DNA from: an uncultured bacterium
Lineage (GTDB): Bacteria > Patescibacteriota > Minisyncoccia > Phycocordibacterales > GWA1-40-21
DNA length: 32,156 bases
Reading direction: 5' to 3'
Assembly (NCBI GenBank): GCA_903850545.1
Contig: CAINLW010000063.1
Span: 1 to 32,156, forward strand
The translations under genes and the position numbers were made by a program. Below the pieces are notes generated by a model that saw only the letters and a program-made list of their open reading frames with translations, did not search any database and had not been told where the DNA came from. Positions 11,866-31,886 of the stretch are shown here, one piece after another; the first letter of the stretch is position 1; the number at the start of each line of letters is the position of its first letter.

Positions 11866-12804
11866 TTATTTAAACTCTTGCAATAAATTTGGTGTATAGA
11901 ATTTTGTTTTTTTGTCCTTTTTATTTTTCAAGGCTGTAAGCATTTTTTCTGCCCAAATTATATGATATTTTTGATCTGTGATAGCATTGTGGGCACCCTG
12001 CATCGTAAGAAAACCATCTATCGCTTTGGATTTTAACAATTTTTGTAATTTATAAGCAGGAAATACAGGATCATCTACTCCACTCATAACAACTATACCG
12101 ATACCCTTTTCATGAAGATAACTTATAAGATCATTGATTTGAAATTTAGATATTTCAAACGATTCTTTTGCTGCATATAAAGGATTTTTTAAAATATATT
12201 TAATTACAGATTTTAATATGGTTTTTTTGGTTTTGTTTTCTTCTTCGGTTATTGGTGTTTTATCAAGACTTTTGCCTCTTCCTACTAACAATTGTTTTAA
12301 AATAAATCGTTTAGTCAAATCAACAATATTATCTTTTCCAATTAAACCAGCTGGGGCAAACAAAACAATATTGCGAAATTTTTCCGGATGTATAACCGCA
12401 GCAATAATTGCCGTCATCGCTCCTTCTGAATGTGCAATAATATCAACCTGTGAAAGATTTTTTTGTTTAATTATATTAAGTAAATCATAAGCCAAGCGTA
12501 ATATCTCTTTAGGAAAAATCTCAATTTCTTCCTTTGTTGCTTCACTTTCTAAATCACCACCTTGATTTGAGTGATTATATGCGATAGCACGTCTATTTTT
12601 TTCCACCATTACTCCAAGAACATCTTTATAAACTGGAATATCAGCTCCCATGCCAGGAACCATAATGACGGGGACTTCGTCCGTTAATTTTTCTGGACTA
12701 ACATCAACAACTTCAATTTTTCTACCAGCAAGATCAAGGGACTCTATTTTATTAAATTGAGTTTCAAAATTATTGTTTTCTTGTGCTAAATTTTCTACAC
12801 CCAT
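11866..12804 (-). CDS. Alpha/beta hydrolase
   Basis: 'VPVIMVPGMGADIPVY', nucleophile elbow 'AHSEGAM', 'GAHNAI'. Confidence 0.87.
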   Translation of the reverse strand: MGVENLAQENNNFETQFNKIESLDLAGRKIEVVDVSPEKLTDEVPVIMVPGMGADIPVYKDVLGVMVEKNRRAIAYNHSNQGGDLESEATKEEIEIFPKEILRLAYDLLNIIKQKNLSQVDIIAHSEGAMTAIIAAVIHPEKFRNIVLFAPAGLIGKDNIVDLTKRFILKQLLVGRGKSLDKTPITEEENKTKKTILKSVIKYILKNPLYAAKESFEISKFQINDLISYLHEKGIGIVVMSGVDDPVFPAYKLQKLLKSKAIDGFLTMQGAHNAITDQKYHIIWAEKMLTALKNKKDKKTKFYTPNLLQEFK

Positions 12805-12836: not shown

Positions 12837-13799
12837 CTATTTAAACTCTTCCAATAAGTTTGGTGTGTAAAATTTTGTTTTTTTGTCCTTTTTGTTTTTC
12901 AAAGCTGTGAGAATTTTATCTACCCAAACAATATGATCTATCTGCTCGCCTATTGCACCATGGCCTCCTTTCATAGTCATAAAACCATCAATATTGTGTA
13001 TTAAATTTGGTTTTTTTATATTCCGTGTTCGAAATACTGGATCGTCTATTCCACTCATAACCACAATGCCAACACCTTTACTATGTAAATAGTCAATCAT
13101 GTCCAAAATTTGAAATTGAGACATCTCATATGATTCTTTTATTGCCCGCAATGGATTTGCTAAAACATACTCTTTGACTGATTTCAAAGCTGCTTGTCCA
13201 ACTTTTTTTTCTTCCTCAGTAATCGGTGTATCATCTAAACTCTTACCTCTATTTTGAGATGCAAATCATTTGGTTAAATCCAAAAAATTATCCTTTCCGA
13301 TCATCCCTGCTGGACCAAATAAAACAATATTTCTAAACTTTTCCGGATGTAAAACCGCGGCAAGAATAGCATTCATAGCACCCTCCGAATGAGCAAGAAC
13401 ATCAACTTTTTCAATGTTTTTTTGTTCAATTACATCTAAAATATTATATGATTTGCGTAATTTTTCTATAGGATATGTGTCTATTTCTGCCTCCGTCGCT
13501 TTGTTTTCCAAATCTCCACCTTGTCGCGGATGATTCAATGAGATGGTGCGACGCCCTCGTTCTACCATAATTTTAAAAACCTGTTCATAAACTTCTATAC
13601 TGCAACCCCAGCCTGACGCAATAAATAAAGGTACTTTGTCTTTTAATTGTTCAGGGATTACATCAACAACCTCAATCCTTCCACCTGCACCCTCAAAAAA
13701 CTCTCTTTTTTCAAATTGAGTTTTAAAATCATTTTTTTCTTCCTGTATAGGAAATTGGTTTTTGTTACTTTCGGCTGACATATGTCTATTATACACCAA
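12837..13799 (-). pseudogene. Tandem paralogue of the alpha/beta hydrolase with an in-frame TGA
   Basis: ORFs 13266-13799 and 12837-13187 are in one frame; '..DNFLDLTK*FASQNRGKSLDDTPITEEEKKVGQAALKSVKEYVL..' against intact '..NIVDLTKRFILKQLLVGRGKSLDKTPITEEENK..'. Confidence 0.75.
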
Positions 13800-16292: not shown

Positions 16293-16985
16293 TTATTTTG
16301 GAAATATTCGACCTTTATGTTTATGTACTATATCTAAACTTTTCTCTATTTTCAAGTATTTCCTCTTTAATTTTAGACCTTTTTTGTTCATATACATACA
16401 ACGAGTAAGTTGTATTGCTTCATATTTTGAATATTTTAATTGATAATATGAAGAGGTTCTTGTTTTAGAAACGCCTATATGGCCTCTTATTTTTAATCTT
16501 TTATCTATTTCTTTACGTAACCAAGTAACAAATTTAATACTACCAGAAGCAAAACTTATATAAAACATAAAACTTGATTTCCATCTCGGATCCCAATACG
16601 AGTATGAGCATCCGTCACCATCAAAACATCCTCTCAAAAAATCAAAAAACAAACTTGCTGGAATATCTAGTTCCCCAATTGTAAGAGACTTTCTTTTCGT
16701 TAAACCTATAGATTCTAAAAATTTGTAAAAAATAACATCGCCAAACTGAATATGGAAATATTTCTTCTCTTTTGCACTTCCACTGCTCTTGAGTCCAATT
16801 TTGACTTTAAGATCTAGGCATTTTACAAAGTTTTTTGCTTGTTCAATATCTTTTGTCGTTAAACTCATATGTCTTCCGTCATTATATAGACATCCATCTG
16901 TAGCTAAAAGACCTATTGCATAAGCAAAATTTGACGACCACTTTATTTTTACATTACCTTTTGGTTTTGTTCCCCTTTTTCCCAT
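16293..16985 (-). CDS. Free-standing LAGLIDADG-type homing endonuclease
   Basis: Two motifs: 'AYAIGLLATDG' and 'FLRGCFDGDG'. Confidence 0.8.
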   Translation of the reverse strand: MGKRGTKPKGNVKIKWSSNFAYAIGLLATDGCLYNDGRHMSLTTKDIEQAKNFVKCLDLKVKIGLKSSGSAKEKKYFHIQFGDVIFYKFLESIGLTKRKSLTIGELDIPASLFFDFLRGCFDGDGCSYSYWDPRWKSSFMFYISFASGSIKFVTWLRKEIDKRLKIRGHIGVSKTRTSSYYQLKYSKYEAIQLTRCMYMNKKGLKLKRKYLKIEKSLDIVHKHKGRIFPK

Positions 16986-22138: not shown

Positions 22139-22261
22139 TATTTCTGAATTTTCTTTATCGCCTCCTCAAAATCTTCCGGATATGGAGCGACGATTTTCAA
22201 TAATTTTCCTGATGGCAATTTAATTTCTAACTCCCTTGCGTGAAGTGCGGTTCTTTTATAA
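22139..22261 (-). pseudogene. Duplicated 3' fragment of the rluD-type gene
   Basis: Minus strand encodes DYKRTALHARELEIKLPSGKLLKIVAPYPEDFEEAIKKIQK*, matching the C-terminus of 23157-23885. Confidence 0.88.
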
Positions 22262-23113
22262 TCAGCTTTCTTCTGGTATGTCATCTTCATTAAAAACATC
22301 GAAATGGTTTTTTATGCCATAATGTACCCCAAGCTGTTTAATTTTAATTAAATAATCCATACTTAAAAATTTTCTAAATACTCTCAAGGCAAAAGCGCTA
22401 GCGTTCCTTTCACCTCTCATAATTTTTTCTTGTTTTTTAACACTAGGTTTCTCAACATGATATTTATCAAACGCCTTTCCCTTGATTAGTCCTTTTAACA
22501 TACCTAAAATTTCTTCCCTTCGCTCTGCCCTCATATGATTTTCTTCAGAAACATAAGGAGTTTCTATTGCATGCCCGATTTCGTGCATCAACACAAACAA
22601 GCCCAAAATCGATGTTGGATCGGTTTCTGTTTCTACTAAAATTCCCTCTCTATTCATACCAATCTGACCATTTGAATTTTGCATTCTCTCTAAAAGCGAT
22701 AGTTTTTGAGTATCGGTAATATAATAGTATATAGAATATTTTTCACATAAATCCTTTAAATCTAAAATTTCTTTTCCTTTTCTTATTGTCAAACCTTTTA
22801 TTTTTCTATAATTTGCTCCTTTTGGTCTATCGTCCCAATAGTCTGGAGTACTAAATCTATTAAGATATGAGTATAGGGTTTCGTCATGAGTTGAATCATA
22901 CTCAATAGCACAAGTTGATACCTCTTTACCTTCTTCTTTTGGTAATTCAAAAGACATAACCCCTTCATCTTTCCATGGATTTTCTGTCAATCGACTTGTT
23001 AATTCTCTTACTGTGGTATCAAACATCTCAGAAGATAAAGTAGCTTCTCTTTTTGACTCGTCTTTAGTCCTTTCAAGATATTCTTCTGATTTATTTCCAA
23101 AAAATTTAAACAT
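22262..23113 (-). CDS. Putative zinc metallopeptidase
   Basis: 'LFVLMHEIGHAIETPYVSEENHMRAERREEIL' (HExxH). Confidence 0.65.
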   Translation of the reverse strand: MFKFFGNKSEEYLERTKDESKREATLSSEMFDTTVRELTSRLTENPWKDEGVMSFELPKEEGKEVSTCAIEYDSTHDETLYSYLNRFSTPDYWDDRPKGANYRKIKGLTIRKGKEILDLKDLCEKYSIYYYITDTQKLSLLERMQNSNGQIGMNREGILVETETDPTSILGLFVLMHEIGHAIETPYVSEENHMRAERREEILGMLKGLIKGKAFDKYHVEKPSVKKQEKIMRGERNASAFALRVFRKFLSMDYLIKIKQLGVHYGIKNHFDVFNEDDIPEES

Positions 23114-24644: not shown

Positions 24645-24717
24645 GGGAGATTAGCTCAGTTGGTAGAGCGCTTCATTTACACTGAAGATGTCACAGGTTC
24701 GAGTCCTGTATCTCCCA
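24645..24717 (+). tRNA. tRNA-Val (TAC)
   Basis: GGGAGAT/ATCTCCC acceptor, anticodon stem-loop CTTCA-TTTACAC-TGAAG, GGTTCGAGTCC T-arm; CCA not encoded. Confidence 0.95.
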
Positions 24718-26240
24718 CACAAGGAAACTTCCATATTTTTACGGCCGGCGCGCAAGCGCGTATTATGGACAATGGGTTTAATAAAATCTAAATTGACCTT
24801 TTGTTTTAATACGAATTCGGTGGGAGGGCAAAATGAGATGGAAACGGATTTGTCACACAATTTATGGTTCGAGCCGATTTTTTTGAAATAATCACGAATT
24901 TCAAAAAAATCGTCGCTCGATACCAATTGCGTGGCTTTTTTTATATCTAAAATCCATTTCCGTAATGGTTCGACCCAATTATTTCTCTCCACTCGGGCGG
25001 AGTCCATTTTATGTGCGAGAGACACCTTTTGTCGCAACAAATCATTTTTCTTCGTAAGATAATTTTCTTTCGGAATATCGCCGTCTAAATATAACGTAAT
25101 CAAATCGTCGAGCTTTTTCTGCGTCTCTCGCTCATTATCTTTTATTCGCCCGACACAGCTTCCCGATAAAACTTTTGCCTCTTTTTCCCATTCGTCAGTT
25201 TTCTCACTCATATACTTTAGCCACTCATCGGGAAGCGTGATTCCTTGAAGCAGTTCTTTTAATTGTTGAACGAGCAAATCTTCTCGCAAATATTGTTGAG
25301 AACAATTTCCTTTTTTCTTCGTACAGCGATAATAGCGATAACGTCCGCCGTTACCTTTGACCCATTGTGCAGTTATCATGCTTCCACATTCACCGCAGTG
25401 AAGTAATCCAGTAAAAGGAAAATTGTGACCAACTTTTGTTTTGCGAGGCCTTGCTCGTTCTTTCAATCGCATCTGGACTGCTTCAAATAAATCTGGAGAA
25501 ATAATTGGTGCAAAGCTTCCTGGGAAATATTCATCTTTATGTTTTACTAAACCGAGATAAGCTTTATTCGTAAGCAACTCGCAAGTTGATGCTTTGCCAA
25601 GTGGCGTTCCGTTTTTCGTAATGACGCCGTGTTCCGCCAAAAATAATGACAATGACGGAAAGGTATGTTTTCCCGTGGCGTATTCTTCGTACGCTTTTAC
25701 AATAATTCTTGCGAGTACAGGATCAGGCTCAATATTTCTAGTTTTAGGATTATTCACGTAGCCCCGCGGGCCTTTCGTGAGCCATTCGCCTCGTCGTACT
25801 TTTTGGCGGATACCTCGCTCGACGTTTTGTTTCAGATTATCGGAATAATATTTCGATTGGCCGAACGCCACTTGAAGCATAAATAATCCTTGCGGAGTGG
25901 GTTCAAACCAAAATGTTGGAAAGCGTAAAGAAACTACTTTGGTCGTGTCTACTCCATAGATGATGCGTCCGCCGTCTATACTATTGCGAGCAAGTCTATC
26001 AGGATGCCATGCAAGAATACCAACACCATCCAATGATTCAATTTGCGACATCATCTCGTTGAATTTTTCACGACCAGGTTTCTTTGCGCTTTTTGACTCT
26101 TGAAATTCCGCGACAATTTCAAGATTTTCTTTATGCGCAAATTCTCGCAGTTCAAAAAGCTGAGCCTCGATAGACATTATTTGTTTATCGTCATCTTCCG
26201 TCGATTTGCGAGCATAAAGAAAATATTTTGGTTTAATCAT
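24651..26240 (-). CDS. Large serine recombinase (resolvase + recombinase + zinc ribbon); ORF reads through the inverted repeat into tRNA-Val
   Basis: 'YARKSTEDDDKQIMSIEAQ', 'GILAWHPDRLARNS', zinc ribbon 'LLHCGECGSMITAQ..YYRCTKKKGNCSQ'; tail 'GRYRTRTCDIFSVNEALYQLS' is antisense tRNA. Confidence 0.93.
   Translation of the reverse strand: MIKPKYFLYARKSTEDDDKQIMSIEAQLFELREFAHKENLEIVAEFQESKSAKKPGREKFNEMMSQIESLDGVGILAWHPDRLARNSIDGGRIIYGVDTTKVVSLRFPTFWFEPTPQGLFMLQVAFGQSKYYSDNLKQNVERGIRQKVRRGEWLTKGPRGYVNNPKTRNIEPDPVLARIIVKAYEEYATGKHTFPSLSLFLAEHGVITKNGTPLGKASTCELLTNKAYLGLVKHKDEYFPGSFAPIISPDLFEAVQMRLKERARPRKTKVGHNFPFTGLLHCGECGSMITAQWVKGNGGRYRYYRCTKKKGNCSQQYLREDLLVQQLKELLQGITLPDEWLKYMSEKTDEWEKEAKVLSGSCVGRIKDNERETQKKLDDLITLYLDGDIPKENYLTKKNDLLRQKVSLAHKMDSARVERNNWVEPLRKWILDIKKATQLVSSDDFFEIRDYFKKIGSNHKLCDKSVSISFCPPTEFVLKQKVNLDFIKPIVHNTRLRAGRKNMEVSLCGRYRTRTCDIFSVNEALYQLS
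24715..24829. repeat. Left inverted-repeat arm
   Basis: CCACACAAGGAAACTTCCATATTTTTACGG..GAATTCGGTGGGAGGGC. Confidence 0.93.
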
Positions 26241-26298
26241 AAAAAGTTTTAGATTATAAAAAAAGAAAAGTCCGTCTATATCTCATTTCTTGCTTTCA

Positions 26299-26413
26299 GC
26301 CCTCCCACCGAATTCGTATTAAAACAAAAGGTCAATTTAGATTTTATTAAACCCATTGTCCATAATACGCGCTTGCGCGCCGGCCGTAAAAATACGGAAG
26401 TTTCCTTGTGTGG
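26299..26413. repeat. Right inverted-repeat arm
   Basis: GCCCTCCCACCGAATTCG..CCGTAAAAATACGGAAGTTTCCTTGTGTGG. Confidence 0.93.
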
Positions 26414-26639
26414 TGATTTGCTAACCTTTGCGCGAAATTATTTTGAACAAAACTCTGATAAATTAATTTAATTAAACAAATGATTCGGCAAAGCAAACTT
26501 TTTGTCTGGGAAAATTGTTTTGCTTTGCCTCAACTCTTTCTCTCGCCCGCAGGAAGGGTCTGGGAAGGAATGCGGGCGATGATTCCAGTTTTGTTTTTTC
26601 GGGATTTGGGGCGGACGAAATTCATAATCAATAATATCA

Positions 26640-26689: not shown

Positions 26690-26911
26690 ATGACTAAGTC
26701 GATAAGAACAAAAGAGTATGCTTACTTTGTCGAGAGATTAAGAAAAGCTCGTGAAGAAGCAGGTTTGACTCAAGTACAAGTTGCTAAGAAATTGAAACGT
26801 CCACAATCTCATATTTCAAATATAGAGTCAGGACAGCAAAGAGTTGATGTTGTCGAACTACAAGCCTTTGCAAAAATTTATAATAAAGATATTAAGTATT
26901 TTGTAAAATAA
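26690..26911 (+). CDS. XRE-family HTH regulator
   Basis: 'LRKAREEAGLTQVQVAKKLKRPQSHISNIESGQQRVDVVELQAFAKIY'. Confidence 0.92.
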   Translation: MTKSIRTKEYAYFVERLRKAREEAGLTQVQVAKKLKRPQSHISNIESGQQRVDVVELQAFAKIYNKDIKYFVK

Positions 26912-26915
26912 TTTT

Positions 26916-27812
26916 ATGAACTGTAAACAGTGTGATAATAAATTAGTTGATAATGCAAAGTTTTGTAATAAATGTGGTAAATCAGTCGAAACAGAAAAGT
27001 TACAGGATAATACTGAAATAGAAAAATCAAAAGTCACCATAATTAAATGCGGTAATTGTAATTATATTGGAGAAGCGGAGTCAAATCGTTCTCTTTGGGC
27101 AAAAATTCTAGCATGGCTTTGTGTTTTTTTTGCACCAATAATTACTATTCTTTATTTTGCATTTACAAAAAAATACAGATGTCCAAAATGTAAATCGACT
27201 TTTGTCGGCGTAAAAGATATAAAAGGAAATTTTGTAGATCAAAAGACAAAAGTTCTTAAGATTGTGTTAATAATTTTTGTTAGTATTTTTGTTATTGGGA
27301 TAATGTCTTCTGTAATTTTAGCTTCTTTAAATTCTGCAAGAGAAAAAGCGGGTCAACAACTATCTGGAGATTGGATAACATATAATGCTATTTCTGATAG
27401 ATTTAGTATCTTATTACCACATTCTCCTAGTTTTGAATCAAGTAATAGTGATACAACTAGTGGAATATCATACGAATACCACTCTTATTCAGCAGAAAAA
27501 ACACCAATTTCTTTTTTAGTCGCAAAATATATTTATTCAGAATCAATTGATATTTCTAATCCAGATAATCTTCTGGAAAAACTAATGAATGGCTTTGTTT
27601 CTGGTTCAGAAACAAAGTTAACTAATTCAAGTTATATTAATTATGAAACATATAGGGGGTTAGATTTTACAGCCAAGACAACTAACGAGACAATTAAAGG
27701 ACGAATTCTATTAATAGGAGAAACCCCGTATCTTCTTATTATAAGTTATCCTGCAGGTAGTAATGTAGATACTGATTATGATAAGTTTGTAAGTTCATTT
27801 GAAATAAAGTAA
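26916..27812 (+). CDS. Double zinc-ribbon, TM-anchored protein with extracytoplasmic C-terminal domain
   Basis: 'MNCKQCDNKLVDNAKFCNKCGK', 'CGNC..CPKC', two hydrophobic segments, beta-rich C-terminus. Confidence 0.75.
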   Translation: MNCKQCDNKLVDNAKFCNKCGKSVETEKLQDNTEIEKSKVTIIKCGNCNYIGEAESNRSLWAKILAWLCVFFAPIITILYFAFTKKYRCPKCKSTFVGVKDIKGNFVDQKTKVLKIVLIIFVSIFVIGIMSSVILASLNSAREKAGQQLSGDWITYNAISDRFSILLPHSPSFESSNSDTTSGISYEYHSYSAEKTPISFLVAKYIYSESIDISNPDNLLEKLMNGFVSGSETKLTNSSYINYETYRGLDFTAKTTNETIKGRILLIGETPYLLIISYPAGSNVDTDYDKFVSSFEIK

Positions 27813-27814
27813 TC

Positions 27815-28291
27815 ATGTTTTGTAAAAATTGTAATAATAAAATAAAAGAAGAGTCTAAATTTTGTTCATCCTGTGGAACAGAAGTAAAAATTATTTCTGA
27901 AAGTAATGTAGAGGTAAAAGAAAAGTTGTCAGACAAAACAAAAACGCCTTTGGATCAAATTGTTTCATTTATTAGTATAATTATAGGTTTCATTATCGGT
28001 AAGTATCTTGGTTTAGTTGTCTTTATATTTTTATTTGCATTTATTATTGGACAGTGGTTTCCTAAATGGTATTTAAAAAGAGAACATATAAATATCAATT
28101 TAGTTAAATGGGTTGTTTGGTCTAATGTTCTAACCTGGTTACTTCCACCTCTAGGAATTATGACTGGTTTTGCTGCTCTAGAATTCGGTAATCATTTTCC
28201 TGGTGAAAGTAAAAAATATAAAATTATTGCAATTATTGGAATAACGGCTTCGTTTATAAATTCTCTTAGTGGTATATTAATGCATATATAA
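27815..28291 (+). CDS. Zinc-ribbon TM protein
   Basis: 'MFCKNCNNKIKEESKFCSSCG' plus TM segments. Confidence 0.75.
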   Translation: MFCKNCNNKIKEESKFCSSCGTEVKIISESNVEVKEKLSDKTKTPLDQIVSFISIIIGFIIGKYLGLVVFIFLFAFIIGQWFPKWYLKREHININLVKWVVWSNVLTWLLPPLGIMTGFAALEFGNHFPGESKKYKIIAIIGITASFINSLSGILMHI

Positions 28292-28295
28292 TATT

Positions 28296-28889
28296 ATGGA
28301 TATCTTTTGTCATAAATGTGGAAATAAGTTAAATGTTAAAGATGAGTTTTGTCAATCTTGTGGTGTAAAAATTATTGCTGATGAAAATAAGAAAGAATCA
28401 AACCATAAAAGTTTGAAACGTAGTGATCTAGAAAAAAAAGCATGGTACAGAGCTTTAAAAGTTATTTATATAATAATAATTATTATTGCGGTTATTATAA
28501 CAGGTATTATTTCTTGGTCATCAAAACCGGAAACGAACTTAGATGGTAATAAATCTTCAATAGCTTGCGACAATGGTAAATCATATACCCCTAACCGCAA
28601 TGACATATATATTTATGGGAAAGAATTAAGCTCTTATGATGACGCACACGCTAGAATTCTTTGTAAATATGATTCTATAAATTTTTATTCCTCCTATTAT
28701 TCTGGATATATTGAAAAAAATTATACTTTTACCCCCGTATATGAAGATACGAAATATGGTTCTTGGCTGGGATATAATATTTTGGCATTTATTATTTTAT
28801 GGTTTGTTGCTTATATAATAAAAATTAGTTTCTTCTATATTGCTATAGGTGAAAAACCCAAAATTGATCTTTTTAGAGCTTTAGAATAA
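28296..28889 (+). CDS. Zinc-ribbon TM protein
   Basis: 'MDIFCHKCGNKLNVKDEFCQSCG' plus two TM segments. Confidence 0.75.
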   Translation: MDIFCHKCGNKLNVKDEFCQSCGVKIIADENKKESNHKSLKRSDLEKKAWYRALKVIYIIIIIIAVIITGIISWSSKPETNLDGNKSSIACDNGKSYTPNRNDIYIYGKELSSYDDAHARILCKYDSINFYSSYYSGYIEKNYTFTPVYEDTKYGSWLGYNILAFIILWFVAYIIKISFFYIAIGEKPKIDLFRALE

Positions 28890-29713
28890 TGTCAGAAGAT
28901 AATATAAAATCAATTGAAGAAGGAAGCACCCCTAAAGTAATTAGGGGTGCTTTGCAAGTGATTGGTGGAGCAGTTCCTTTTGCTGGCGGTTTACTTTCTG
29001 CAGCTGCGGGTGCTTGGTCAGAAAATGAACAAGAAAAAGTAAATAAATTTTTACGTCAATGGATAAAAATGTTAGAGGATGAAATAAAAGAAAAAGAAAT
29101 AACCATTTTAGAAATAATGGCTCGCTTAAATATTCATGATGAGAAAATATCAAAAAGATTAGAGAGTAAAGAATATCAATCTCTTTTAAAAAAGACATTT
29201 CGAGAATGGTCTGGTGCAGAAAGTGAAGATAAGAGAACTTATATAAGAAATATACTTGCTAATGCGGCGGCTTCGTCTATAACAAGTGATGAAGTGGTGC
29301 GTCTTTTTATTGATTGGCTAAAGATGTATTCCGAACTTCATTTCAAGGTTGTTTCTATTATTTATAAACATGGGACTAATGGAGTTTCTCGTGGCGAAAT
29401 TTGGCGAGACTTAGGAAAATCTGAAGTTGCAGAAAATTCTGCTGACGCAGATTTGTTTAAATTGTTAATCAGAGATTTGAGTACCGGTGGGGTGGTTAGA
29501 CAACACCGAGAGGTTGATTATTATGGTAATTTTATATCAAAGACTCCAGAACGTCGTCCCAAAGGATCTGGACCAAAACCAGTAACTTCTGCTTTTGATG
29601 ATGAGGACTCTTATGAACTAACAGAACTTGGTAAACAATTTGTGCACTACGCGATGACAGATTTACCGTTAAAAATTGAGTATAAACCAAAAACTGAAAA
29701 TGATTCGATATAA
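28889..29713 (+). CDS. Uncharacterised protein with Gly/Ala-rich hydrophobic N-terminus, candidate effector
   Basis: 'VIRGALQVIGGAVPFAGGLLSAAAGAWSENEQEK'; start codon overlaps the upstream stop (taATG). Confidence 0.7.
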   Translation: MSEDNIKSIEEGSTPKVIRGALQVIGGAVPFAGGLLSAAAGAWSENEQEKVNKFLRQWIKMLEDEIKEKEITILEIMARLNIHDEKISKRLESKEYQSLLKKTFREWSGAESEDKRTYIRNILANAAASSITSDEVVRLFIDWLKMYSELHFKVVSIIYKHGTNGVSRGEIWRDLGKSEVAENSADADLFKLLIRDLSTGGVVRQHREVDYYGNFISKTPERRPKGSGPKPVTSAFDDEDSYELTELGKQFVHYAMTDLPLKIEYKPKTENDSI

Positions 29714-29746
29714 AAAAAGAACGAGTTGCGGTCTCGTTCTTTTTTC
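29712..29746. terminator. Bidirectional terminator
   Basis: AAAAAAAGAACGAG ttgcggt CTCGTTCTTTTTT. Confidence 0.85.
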
Positions 29747-29750
29747 TTGT

Positions 29751-29954
29751 TTACTTTCTTCTATTATACGGTGACTGATTTGTTGGCTTCAGGCTAAGAC
29801 CAAGTTTGTTGGCCTCTGCTCTAATCGCATTTTCAGTTCTACCAATTTTGAATCCAGCTACTCGTGTCGGTGTATTTTGTTTAACCAATTGTTTAAGTTG
29901 ACTGACATCTTTAGACGTCCACGATTTACCGGTATTACGTGTGTAATAAGGCAT
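29751..29954 (-). CDS. Small SANT/Myb-like HTH protein
   Basis: 'SWTSKDVSQLKQLVKQNTPTRVAGFKIGRTENAIRAEANKLGLSL'. Confidence 0.7.
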   Translation of the reverse strand: MPYYTRNTGKSWTSKDVSQLKQLVKQNTPTRVAGFKIGRTENAIRAEANKLGLSLKPTNQSPYNRRK

Positions 29955-29982
29955 TTGTATTGTATTAATTAGACGCCCTTAT

Positions 29983-30010
29983 TTGTTAAAAATACTAAAT
30001 CTGATAAAAT
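29983..30010 (+). promoter_or_regulatory. Candidate promoter of the small RNA
   Basis: TTGTTA (29983-29988), 16-nt spacer, TAAAAT (30005-30010). Confidence 0.4.
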
Positions 30011-30016
30011 AAAAGT

Positions 30017-30122
30017 GTTCAAATTTTTACTTGTGGTTTAGCTGAAATACCCCAAAGGGCAAAAAAGACATTTCTGATTAATATGGAGAAGGGGTTACCG
30101 CAAATAACTACTTCTCTTTTTT
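30017..30122 (+). ncRNA. Candidate small structured RNA ending in a terminator
   Basis: TTGTGGT/ACCGCAA and ACCCC/GGGGT nested pairing; GAGAAG..CTTCTC followed by TTTTTT. Confidence 0.4.
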
Positions 30123-30169
30123 AATTTTATACCCTTGTTTTTATATGTCAAATTATCCACATAAATTGA

Positions 30170-30198
30170 TTGACTTTTTTACAAGTTTTCTATATACT
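30170..30198 (+). promoter_or_regulatory. Sigma70-type promoter of the TA-like pair
   Basis: TTGACT (30170-30175), 17-nt spacer, TATACT (30193-30198); ATG at 30210. Confidence 0.7.
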
Positions 30199-30209
30199 TA
30201 TTCATAAAT

Positions 30210-30902
30210 ATGAACAAGTATATAGAAAAAATTAAAGGGTTGCGAAATGAAAAAGGATTAAGTCAAGAGGAAGTGGCAAAAATAATTGGAGTATCACGAC
30301 CTACATATACTGCTATCGAAAAAGGGAAACAAAAACTTAATTTAGATGAGGCACAAAAACTAGCCAATATTTTTGGTATGGATGTGAATTCTTTTTTGTC
30401 TGGAAATATTCCTAATTTTGATAAATATAAACAAATGATTTTAACTTTTTTGCGGATGAATCTTTCTAAAGATGGAAAGGTGCCGAAAACAAAACTCGCA
30501 AAACTTCTGTATCTTGCTGATTTTGCCTGGTATTATAATAATTTAGAAAGCATGAGCGGAATGTCATATAAAAAAAATACATATGGTCCTGTACCAGATA
30601 ATTTTTTTCGTGCTCTAGCTGAACTTGAAGAAAGTGGAAAAATTACCATAGATCATAAAAATGATAATGGTAAAGAGATGTTTTTAGTTAGTGAGGCAGA
30701 TAGTAATAAAAACGAAAAGATCAATACAGTTTCAAAAGAAGAGAAAGGCTTGATTTCTGAAATTGTAAAAAAATGGAAAGATAAAAAGACTCAAGAAATT
30801 GTTAATTTTACTCACAATCAATTACCGTACACCCTTTGTCGACAGGATGAAATTATTCCGTATGAGTTGATAACACAAGAGGACCCTGAAATGGTTTTCT
30901 AG
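30210..30902 (+). CDS. HTH + Panacea (DUF4065/SocA-like) antitoxin
   Basis: XRE HTH 'LRNEKGLSQEEVAKIIGVSRPTYTAIEKGKQKL'; Panacea-like 'KTKLAKLLYLADFAWYYNNLESMSGMSYKKNTYGPVPDNFFRALAELEESGKI'. Confidence 0.85.
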   Translation: MNKYIEKIKGLRNEKGLSQEEVAKIIGVSRPTYTAIEKGKQKLNLDEAQKLANIFGMDVNSFLSGNIPNFDKYKQMILTFLRMNLSKDGKVPKTKLAKLLYLADFAWYYNNLESMSGMSYKKNTYGPVPDNFFRALAELEESGKITIDHKNDNGKEMFLVSEADSNKNEKINTVSKEEKGLISEIVKKWKDKKTQEIVNFTHNQLPYTLCRQDEIIPYELITQEDPEMVF

Positions 30903-30910
30903 TCTATAAC

Positions 30911-31306
30911 ATGCAAGGTAACTATTCTGTACAGATTGAGTCGTTTGCTGAACGCCACTACATAAAAAGTTTTGAGAAAAAGTATAAGGCTCATTGGGAT
31001 GTTACTTTGCGTGCAATTATTGCAGAGTTAGAGCGTATTGATATACTTATAGGGAAAACTAATATTGTTGAAGTAATTACTGACAAAGGAGATATCAAGA
31101 TTTATAAAACAGAATTTCGTGTTCATGGTACACAAGAATCCCGACATAAATCTGGTAATCGCTGTATTATTGCAGTTCATAAAACTATGTGTGTTATTAA
31201 GATTTTGCTTTTATATTGTAAAACTGATTTAGGTAGTAATAATGAAACATCGGAATGGAAAAAATTAATTAAGGAAAATTATCCTGAATATTGTAATTTA
31301 TTATAA
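30911..31306 (+). CDS. Putative toxin partner, RelE/ParE-like fold suspected
   Basis: 131 aa, 8 nt downstream of the antitoxin; 'YKTEFRVHG..NRCIIAVHKTMCVIKILLLYCKTD..WKKLIKENYPEY'. Confidence 0.6.
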   Translation: MQGNYSVQIESFAERHYIKSFEKKYKAHWDVTLRAIIAELERIDILIGKTNIVEVITDKGDIKIYKTEFRVHGTQESRHKSGNRCIIAVHKTMCVIKILLLYCKTDLGSNNETSEWKKLIKENYPEYCNLL

Positions 31307-31310
31307 AAAT

Positions 31311-31886
31311 ATGCCCGACGAAAATCAACAAACAATAACCACAGATAACACTCAAGCTCCTGAAACGACTCAAGCTATAAATACTGATACTCCAGTTATT
31401 ACAACTGATTCTACACCTGTCGAAGTGCCATCAGAGGCCCCAGAAAGCCCTACAAACGTAGTAGATATGCCTCTGGGCAAAGATGATAATGGAGCATCAA
31501 TTCAAGCTGAGAGCCAAGTAGAAAAAGCACCCGAAATCACCGAAACTCAACCTTCTAACACCCAAACGCCCGTCAAAAGTAGTAACTTTTCTTCGAGTGA
31601 GCAAACGGCTCAAATGGTAGGAAATGAGCCGATCAGAACTCAAAGCTTCATCCGTGGATTACTAGAGAAAGCTAAACTTGCAATACAAAGTAGAAAGAGA
31701 AAGAAACTAGATAAGATTATGAATTTGTTTGCGAAGCAAACAAATATATCTAATAACGACGTACAAAAACTTTTGTATGTGTCTGATGCAACCGCAACAA
31801 GATATCTTGGTATTTTAATAAAAGAAGGAAAAATAAAACAAGAAGGAAAAACTGGAAAGTCTGTATTTTATATTTTAGTAAAATAA
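31311..31886 (+). CDS. Low-complexity N-terminus plus C-terminal winged-HTH protein
   Basis: T/P/E/S-rich N-term; 'NISNNDVQKLLYVSDATATRYLGILIKEGKIKQEGKTGKSVFYIL'. Confidence 0.7.
   Translation: MPDENQQTITTDNTQAPETTQAINTDTPVITTDSTPVEVPSEAPESPTNVVDMPLGKDDNGASIQAESQVEKAPEITETQPSNTQTPVKSSNFSSSEQTAQMVGNEPIRTQSFIRGLLEKAKLAIQSRKRKKLDKIMNLFAKQTNISNNDVQKLLYVSDATATRYLGILIKEGKIKQEGKTGKSVFYILVK

Follow-up and report, generated by a model that had tools for sequence, protein, structure and literature searches.

The window, a stretch of 32,156 nucleotides taken as a whole from contig CAINLW010000063.1 of an uncultured Patescibacteria genome, carries a tRNA-Val(tac) gene, a large serine recombinase (integrase) gene enclosed between two long inverted repeats and, beyond these, a run of cargo genes. 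The element also includes what lies beyond the right arm, from 26414 to about 26622; the island runs on past the far arm and its other end lies outside the window. The following features have been identified:

24645..24718, + strand: tRNA-Val(tac), found with ARAGORN (Rfam RF00005 at 24645-24717); its T arm and acceptor, towards the 3' end, supply the attB-derived half of attL
24651..26240, - strand: open reading frame of the large serine recombinase/integrase; element-encoded part 24720-26240
24715..24719: attL core CCACA, that is tRNA nucleotides 71-73 followed by CA; common to the far junction and to the expected attR on contigs C8/C11
24715..24829, - strand: near arm, which is the 3' end of the integrase gene and the element half of attL
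26256..26411, + strand: inverted fragment of the integrase 3' coding end, taking in the far arm
26299..26413, + strand: far arm, an inverted copy of the near arm; putative element half of an internal intact attP
26409..26413: core of the putative internal attP, TGTGG on the + strand and CCACA on the - strand
26412..26471, + strand: putative native C-terminal tail of the integrase, GDLLTFARNYFEQNSDKLI*, in frame within the P module (from translation)
26414..26622 (about): P module, with the conserved P half-site and hairpins, ending at GGGGCGGAC
26690..26911, + strand: XRE-type helix-turn-helix gene adjoining the P module (Pfam HTH_3, 5.8e-13)
26916..31886, + strand: remaining cargo, with zinc-ribbon proteins and an HTH-Panacea protein

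Three Pfam domains, all over the curated cut-offs, have been detected in the integrase: Resolvase (4e-22), Recombinase (7e-10) and Zn_ribbon_recom (5e-13). The large serine recombinase (LSR) family is characterised by this order, with the catalytic Resolvase domain first and the Recombinase and zinc-ribbon domains after it, and the sequence also matches PDB 3guv. The inverted-repeat search returned arms of 115 nt each (24715-24829 and 26299-26413), 99% complementary with a single mismatch and separated by 1469 nt; no other inverted pair in the 4 kb searched exceeds 36 nt at 72%. Weak similarity goes on inward of the arms (24831-24854 with 26265-26288, 79%), and no near-identical copy of the arm pair was found elsewhere in the host genome (985 kb, 64 contigs). 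An earlier sequence-only reading of this DNA had described both the arms and the start of the left arm within the last nucleotides of tRNA-Val, where it also encodes the recombinase C-terminus; the arms are real, and the overlap agrees with the ARAGORN prediction and the reading frame on the reverse strand. The integrase tail, 'RYRTRTCDIFSVNEALYQLS', is read from antisense tRNA-Val, and, in the opposite orientation, positions 26265-26408 encode integrase residues 463-507 at 91% identity. At the near junction, between arm and tRNA-Val, lies attL; in this arm-core-tRNA arrangement the native tail has been swapped for antisense tRNA. One attP half sits in the 3' end of the integrase gene, the native form of which most likely ends in the P module, so that arm-core-P would represent the undivided attP.

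Apart from this locus, the window contains a second, partial copy of the C-terminus of an RluD-type pseudouridine synthase (22144-22284, - strand, 77% identity), an apparent broken second copy (12837-13187 and 13266-13799) of the alpha/beta-hydrolase-like gene at 11866-12804, and a protein (16293-16985, - strand) resembling, by eye, a free-standing LAGLIDADG-type endonuclease, which adjoins tRNA-Leu and tRNA-His.

Recurrence and orientation of the integrase cassette in Patescibacteria

A total of 185 distinct homologous recombinase loci have been collected, and the repeat was scored where both sides were present, at an identity of at least 38%. Under these terms the inverted repeat occurs in 130 of the 139 checkable Patescibacteria loci, so that the search for like cassettes called for in the sequence-only reading has recovered the same arrangement widely; among distant integrases located at tRNAs it is found in none of four. 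The best 80 relatives in the scan of genome contigs all come from Patescibacteria where a phylum is named, except for one MAG labelled Deltaproteobacteria, and strong integrase matches are present in 102 of 397 genomes of the order. Inverted repeats of about 70-150 bp enclose the gene in most relatives, and the arm on its 3' side adjoins the 3' end of a tRNA or tmRNA that is encoded on the opposite strand. The near arm usually reaches 4-8 nt into the tRNA as annotated, for 15 tRNA types as well as tmRNA. No relatives were recovered in a scan of IMG/VR for phage carriers.

The arms within a locus are closely matched: over their outer 100 bp, identity reaches 95% or more in 79 of 101 loci, and in 91 of 101 neither arm is closer to an arm of another locus than to its partner. 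At sites varying between related loci, the locus-specific base is present in both arms in 190 of 217 cases. This pattern of substitutions indicates that the two arms evolve in concert.

Two orientations of the cassette have been observed. Orientation A, with the integrase 3' end at the tRNA, accounts for 146 loci and the opposite orientation B for seven (L022, L025, L057, L184, L210, L212 and L231). The same locus has been seen in both orientations in one pair, L056 and L057, which share a 4-kb flank at 99.7% identity around an inverted cassette; the L057 contig ends at the repeat. Most B contigs likewise stop at the repeat, and two (L212, L210) run past it. L212 lies fully within a 131.8-kb contig and its arms are only 77% identical, which makes confusion of the arms by the assembler unlikely; no recognisable P module was found on its far side. 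In L210, which points away from the tRNA, the arms have diverged and the integrase ends in a native-type tail, ...LDEVRTFFDENPEN*. In a further locus (L243) the cassette is placed between tRNA-Phe and tRNA-Leu, both with the core GCA, a layout as expected had the internal attP reacted with a second tRNA.

Attachment cores, island ends and empty sites

The sequence just outside the far arm is conserved between islands. Read outward from the arm, the P module continues the integrase frame to a tail in nearly all of 89 islands, and the residues of this tail conform to xxFART(Y/F/H)F or to a near variant of it, a motif of xRT(Y/F/H)F type (…FARTYFEQN*). TANNAT-like bases beside the core had hinted at a promoter in the P module; a consensus scan gave nothing there, and the in-frame tail accounts for the conservation of the module better than a promoter does, although one may still be present.

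Alignment of the far arm with the tRNA end in the 89 islands shows identity at tRNA nucleotides 72 and 73, as well as at the two bases that follow, in all 89, at nucleotide 71 in 80 and at nucleotide 70 in only nine. The matched bases vary by tRNA (CCA, TCA, CCG, GCA, CAG, GGA, CGA), and the attachment site therefore co-varies with the target. From this match and the continuing reading frame, the far junction (arm/P module) appears to be an intact attP in inverted orientation. Integration by way of a single attP splits that site and leaves none intact, whereas the window and about 89 islands retain the internal arm-core-P arrangement undivided.

At the other end of the island, a second P module in inverted orientation lies 1.2-7 kb from the first in about 25 distinct islands, usually at 90-100% identity. 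It is present in 15 of the 18 loci with long upstream sequence; in the other three long flanks no second P module was found. In most islands the match between P modules ends with the core, about 4-7 nt beyond the limit of the arm, and the B' side of attR often opens with a tRNA-type terminator hairpin. Comparison of attP, attR and attL in 23 entries (two of them, L096 and L285, being the same locus) revealed a core common to all three in most; boundaries are less clean or cut off in L261, L267, L273, L274 and L289. The islands delimited in this way are 3-9 kb long. In one locus (L265, 9489-9641) a third copy of the P module, in direct orientation and with 95% identity, lies beyond attR, hinting at tandem or successive insertions.

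In the genome of the window, contigs C8 and C11 overlap by 141 bp and carry a P module, CCACA, and a terminator with an inverted tRNA-Val(tac)-like 3' end, in this order. By its layout, this arrangement would be the expected attR of the window's island. The second P module, at the end of C8, is 83% identical to that of the window and the intervening stretch is unassembled; C8 does not simply adjoin the window end, and the island of the window is not joined end to end across contigs.

Empty sites have been found in relatives. The flanks of the island in genome G119 overlap by 5 bp, GCACA; a genome of the same genus, G168, matches straight across the junction without the island, and in a second same-genus genome, G041, the match extends 23 bp past the junction and resumes 10 bp on. 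At the empty site the integrase, the P modules and the cargo are absent together. Relatives thus lack a unit that is bounded by attL and attR with a short common core, as is characteristic of LSR integrative elements. The sequence-only reading had set long inverted repeats against the short cores of serine integrases: the repeat is indeed unusual for such an enzyme, but a short attL/attR core of 5 bp (CCACA) exists as well.

The cargo is varied and often consists of restriction or defence genes. The 84 cargo proteins of the delimited islands include matches to an EcoRI-type methylase and a type II restriction enzyme (E down to 2e-139), to GmrSD, an OLD-like nuclease, AbiLi and HTH regulators, together with a cytochrome d1-domain protein and an aromatic amino acid lyase. 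An XRE-type regulator gene stands beside the P module in several islands (window 26690-26911; L096 3308-3505) and may regulate the integrase.

Other observations concern the surroundings of tRNA genes. Small non-coding sequences lie beside tRNAs in the window's own genome (C11:180-420, L253; C47:440-700, L254; C17:400-500, L256) and in L131 (1311-1450), L132 and L134. They are composed of a terminator hairpin, an inverted tRNA 3'-end copy with an inserted hairpin, variable stems and a TACTGxTCxTGTAA motif, and look like mobile or decoy elements at tRNA ends. In relatives (L130-L139), tRNA-Val(tac) neighbours rluD, but close relatives differ in how the two genes are oriented to each other, which suggests that the DNA around the tRNA has been rearranged locally.

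Proposed mechanism and rival explanations

It is likely that the window holds the tRNA-proximal end of an island moved by a large serine integrase, in which a second, inverted attP stays intact after integration. This reading draws on comparison of the loci: their anatomy, the matched cores, the attL/attP/attR triples, the empty sites, the concerted evolution of the arms and the two cassette orientations. The attP site would overlap the 3' end of the integrase gene, and integration at the 3' end of a tRNA would fuse the end of that gene to the tRNA (attL), leaving the tRNA intact and placing the remaining half-site (P module) at the opposite end, in attR. The intact attP (arm-core-P module) after integration would come from a further, inverted copy of the complete site upstream of the integrase. 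Catalysis of attP x attB by the integrase, excision and a free circle are predicted; the circle would contain two inverted attP sites dividing the integrase segment from the cargo segment. Integration via either site, or recombination of attL with the internal attP, would give the two orientations, recombination through the repeats would keep the copies identical, and the spare attP could also join a second tRNA. Several points count against this mechanism. The bias of 146 to 7 between the orientations is unaccounted for by two equivalent attP sites, and serine integrases do not normally act on attP x attP, nor on attL x attP unless a directionality factor is present. The ending of most B contigs at the repeat, the far side of L212, the diverged arms of L210, the identity of only 83% between the P modules of the window's genome and the three long flanks with one P module also weigh against it.

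The sequence-only reading had considered an invertible element, and both orientations do occur in nature, including one nearly identical pair; the mobile unit, however, is larger and the repeat lies inside it. A self-inverting switch, with the arms as inversion sites and the integrase flipping its own gene ON or OFF relative to the P module and the tRNA promoter, is unlikely: 146 of 153 oriented loci point one way, the same sites serve as attL/attR of the whole island and the consensus scan supported no promoter in the P module. Inversion may still take place with no role as a regulatory switch. The far arm, a piece of an integrase 3' end, is what would be left by two integrases inserted at one tRNA in opposite orientation, one of them since mostly deleted. 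Such a relic composite may have been the first origin of the arrangement, but as an account of the present islands it is very unlikely, given that the architecture recurs in 130 of 139 loci, the arms are near-identical by concerted evolution, the core co-varies with the tRNA and the tail is in frame.

One-gene cassettes between near-perfect inverted repeats at many different tRNAs could also suggest a terminal-inverted-repeat transposon with the arms as its ends, the new transposon architecture of the earlier proposal. This is highly improbable, for the sequence beyond the far arm is conserved and part of the element, and relatives with the empty site are without integrase, P modules and cargo alike. 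The arms flank the integrase only; the real ends are the arm at the tRNA (attL) and the second, inverted P module several kb off, where the unit ends (attR). The probability of an assembly or amplification artefact, i.e. a palindromic misassembly, is close to nil, even though contigs often end in the upstream arm: upstream of the start codon, a contig end lies no more than 500 bp away in 76 of 161 loci; on the 3' side, one lies within 1.4 kb in 16 of 166. A repeat longer than the k-mer causes such ends, which explains the contig breaks beside this arm. Dozens of independent genomes have the repeat, its arms differ by mismatches and indels, and it lies inside contigs of 131 to 831 kb; the arms are 69-77% identical in some contigs, and arms of 100% identity are found inside contigs of 425 and 523 kb. 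The palindrome suspected in the sequence-only reading can thus be set aside.

Relation to known systems and significance

Taken as islands moved by a large serine integrase, the Patescibacteria elements are LSR integrative elements in the broad sense, which depart from the usual splitting of attP by integration. With LSR elements and phages (phiC31, A118, SCC/Ccr type) they share the Resolvase, Recombinase and zinc-ribbon protein, an attP beside the integrase gene, an attL and attR with a few bp of common core, and the restored empty attB. In contrast to phiC31, A118 and SCC/Ccr, they target the 3' ends of many tRNAs and of tmRNA, their attP is embedded in the 3' end of the coding sequence, a second attP in inverted orientation appears to be kept intact, and both half-sites are duplicated as inverted repeats. 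Tyrosine-integrase tRNA islands are similar in their insertion at the tRNA 3' end, the intact tRNA, the integrase beside it and the defence or accessory cargo; they differ from the present islands, which have a serine recombinase, a shared core of only about 5 bp and mirrored half-sites. The serine invertase switches Hin, Gin and PinQ also combine a recombinase with inverted recombination sites, and are seen in both orientations, whereas here the protein is large and of integrase type, the arms are long, the segment is part of a mobile island and the orientation is strongly biased.

The yeast 2-micron plasmid encodes FLP and carries two inverted FRT sites. The likeness to the predicted circle, with two recombination sites in inverted repeats separating a recombinase part from the other part, is one of design, not kinship: the Patescibacteria islands have a serine rather than a tyrosine recombinase, are bacterial and integrate into the chromosome, and flipping or amplification is here only predicted. 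As a tentative idea suggested by this layout, excised circles with two identical inverted attP sites could constitute a bacterial 2-micron-like design, able to flip between isomers, integrate by either site, hook two tRNAs and maybe self-amplify by flipping.

No description of the mirrored-attP arrangement was found in the open-licence literature. Recombinases similar to ccrB are highly expressed in groundwater Doudnabacteria and Paceibacteria, and the passages at hand of that paper contain no mirrored architecture (PMC9938205); the same holds for the passages at hand of a report of genomic islands in Patescibacteria genomes, including nzgw456 (PMC12455944).

For the Patescibacteria, a very large and mostly uncultured group, the arrangement offers a mechanism behind gene islands and accounts for the breaking of many of their assemblies beside these integrases at tRNA genes. 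The precise island boundaries allow mining of the cargo for restriction genes, other defence genes and varied others. A core co-varying with the tRNA points to an integrase family aimed at tRNA ends, with a readable specificity. For recombinase biology, the islands would represent a natural serine-integrase system with a duplicated, inverted attP, in which attP overlaps the coding end of the enzyme; if this is true, the mirrored site would leave the integrated island still able to recombine.
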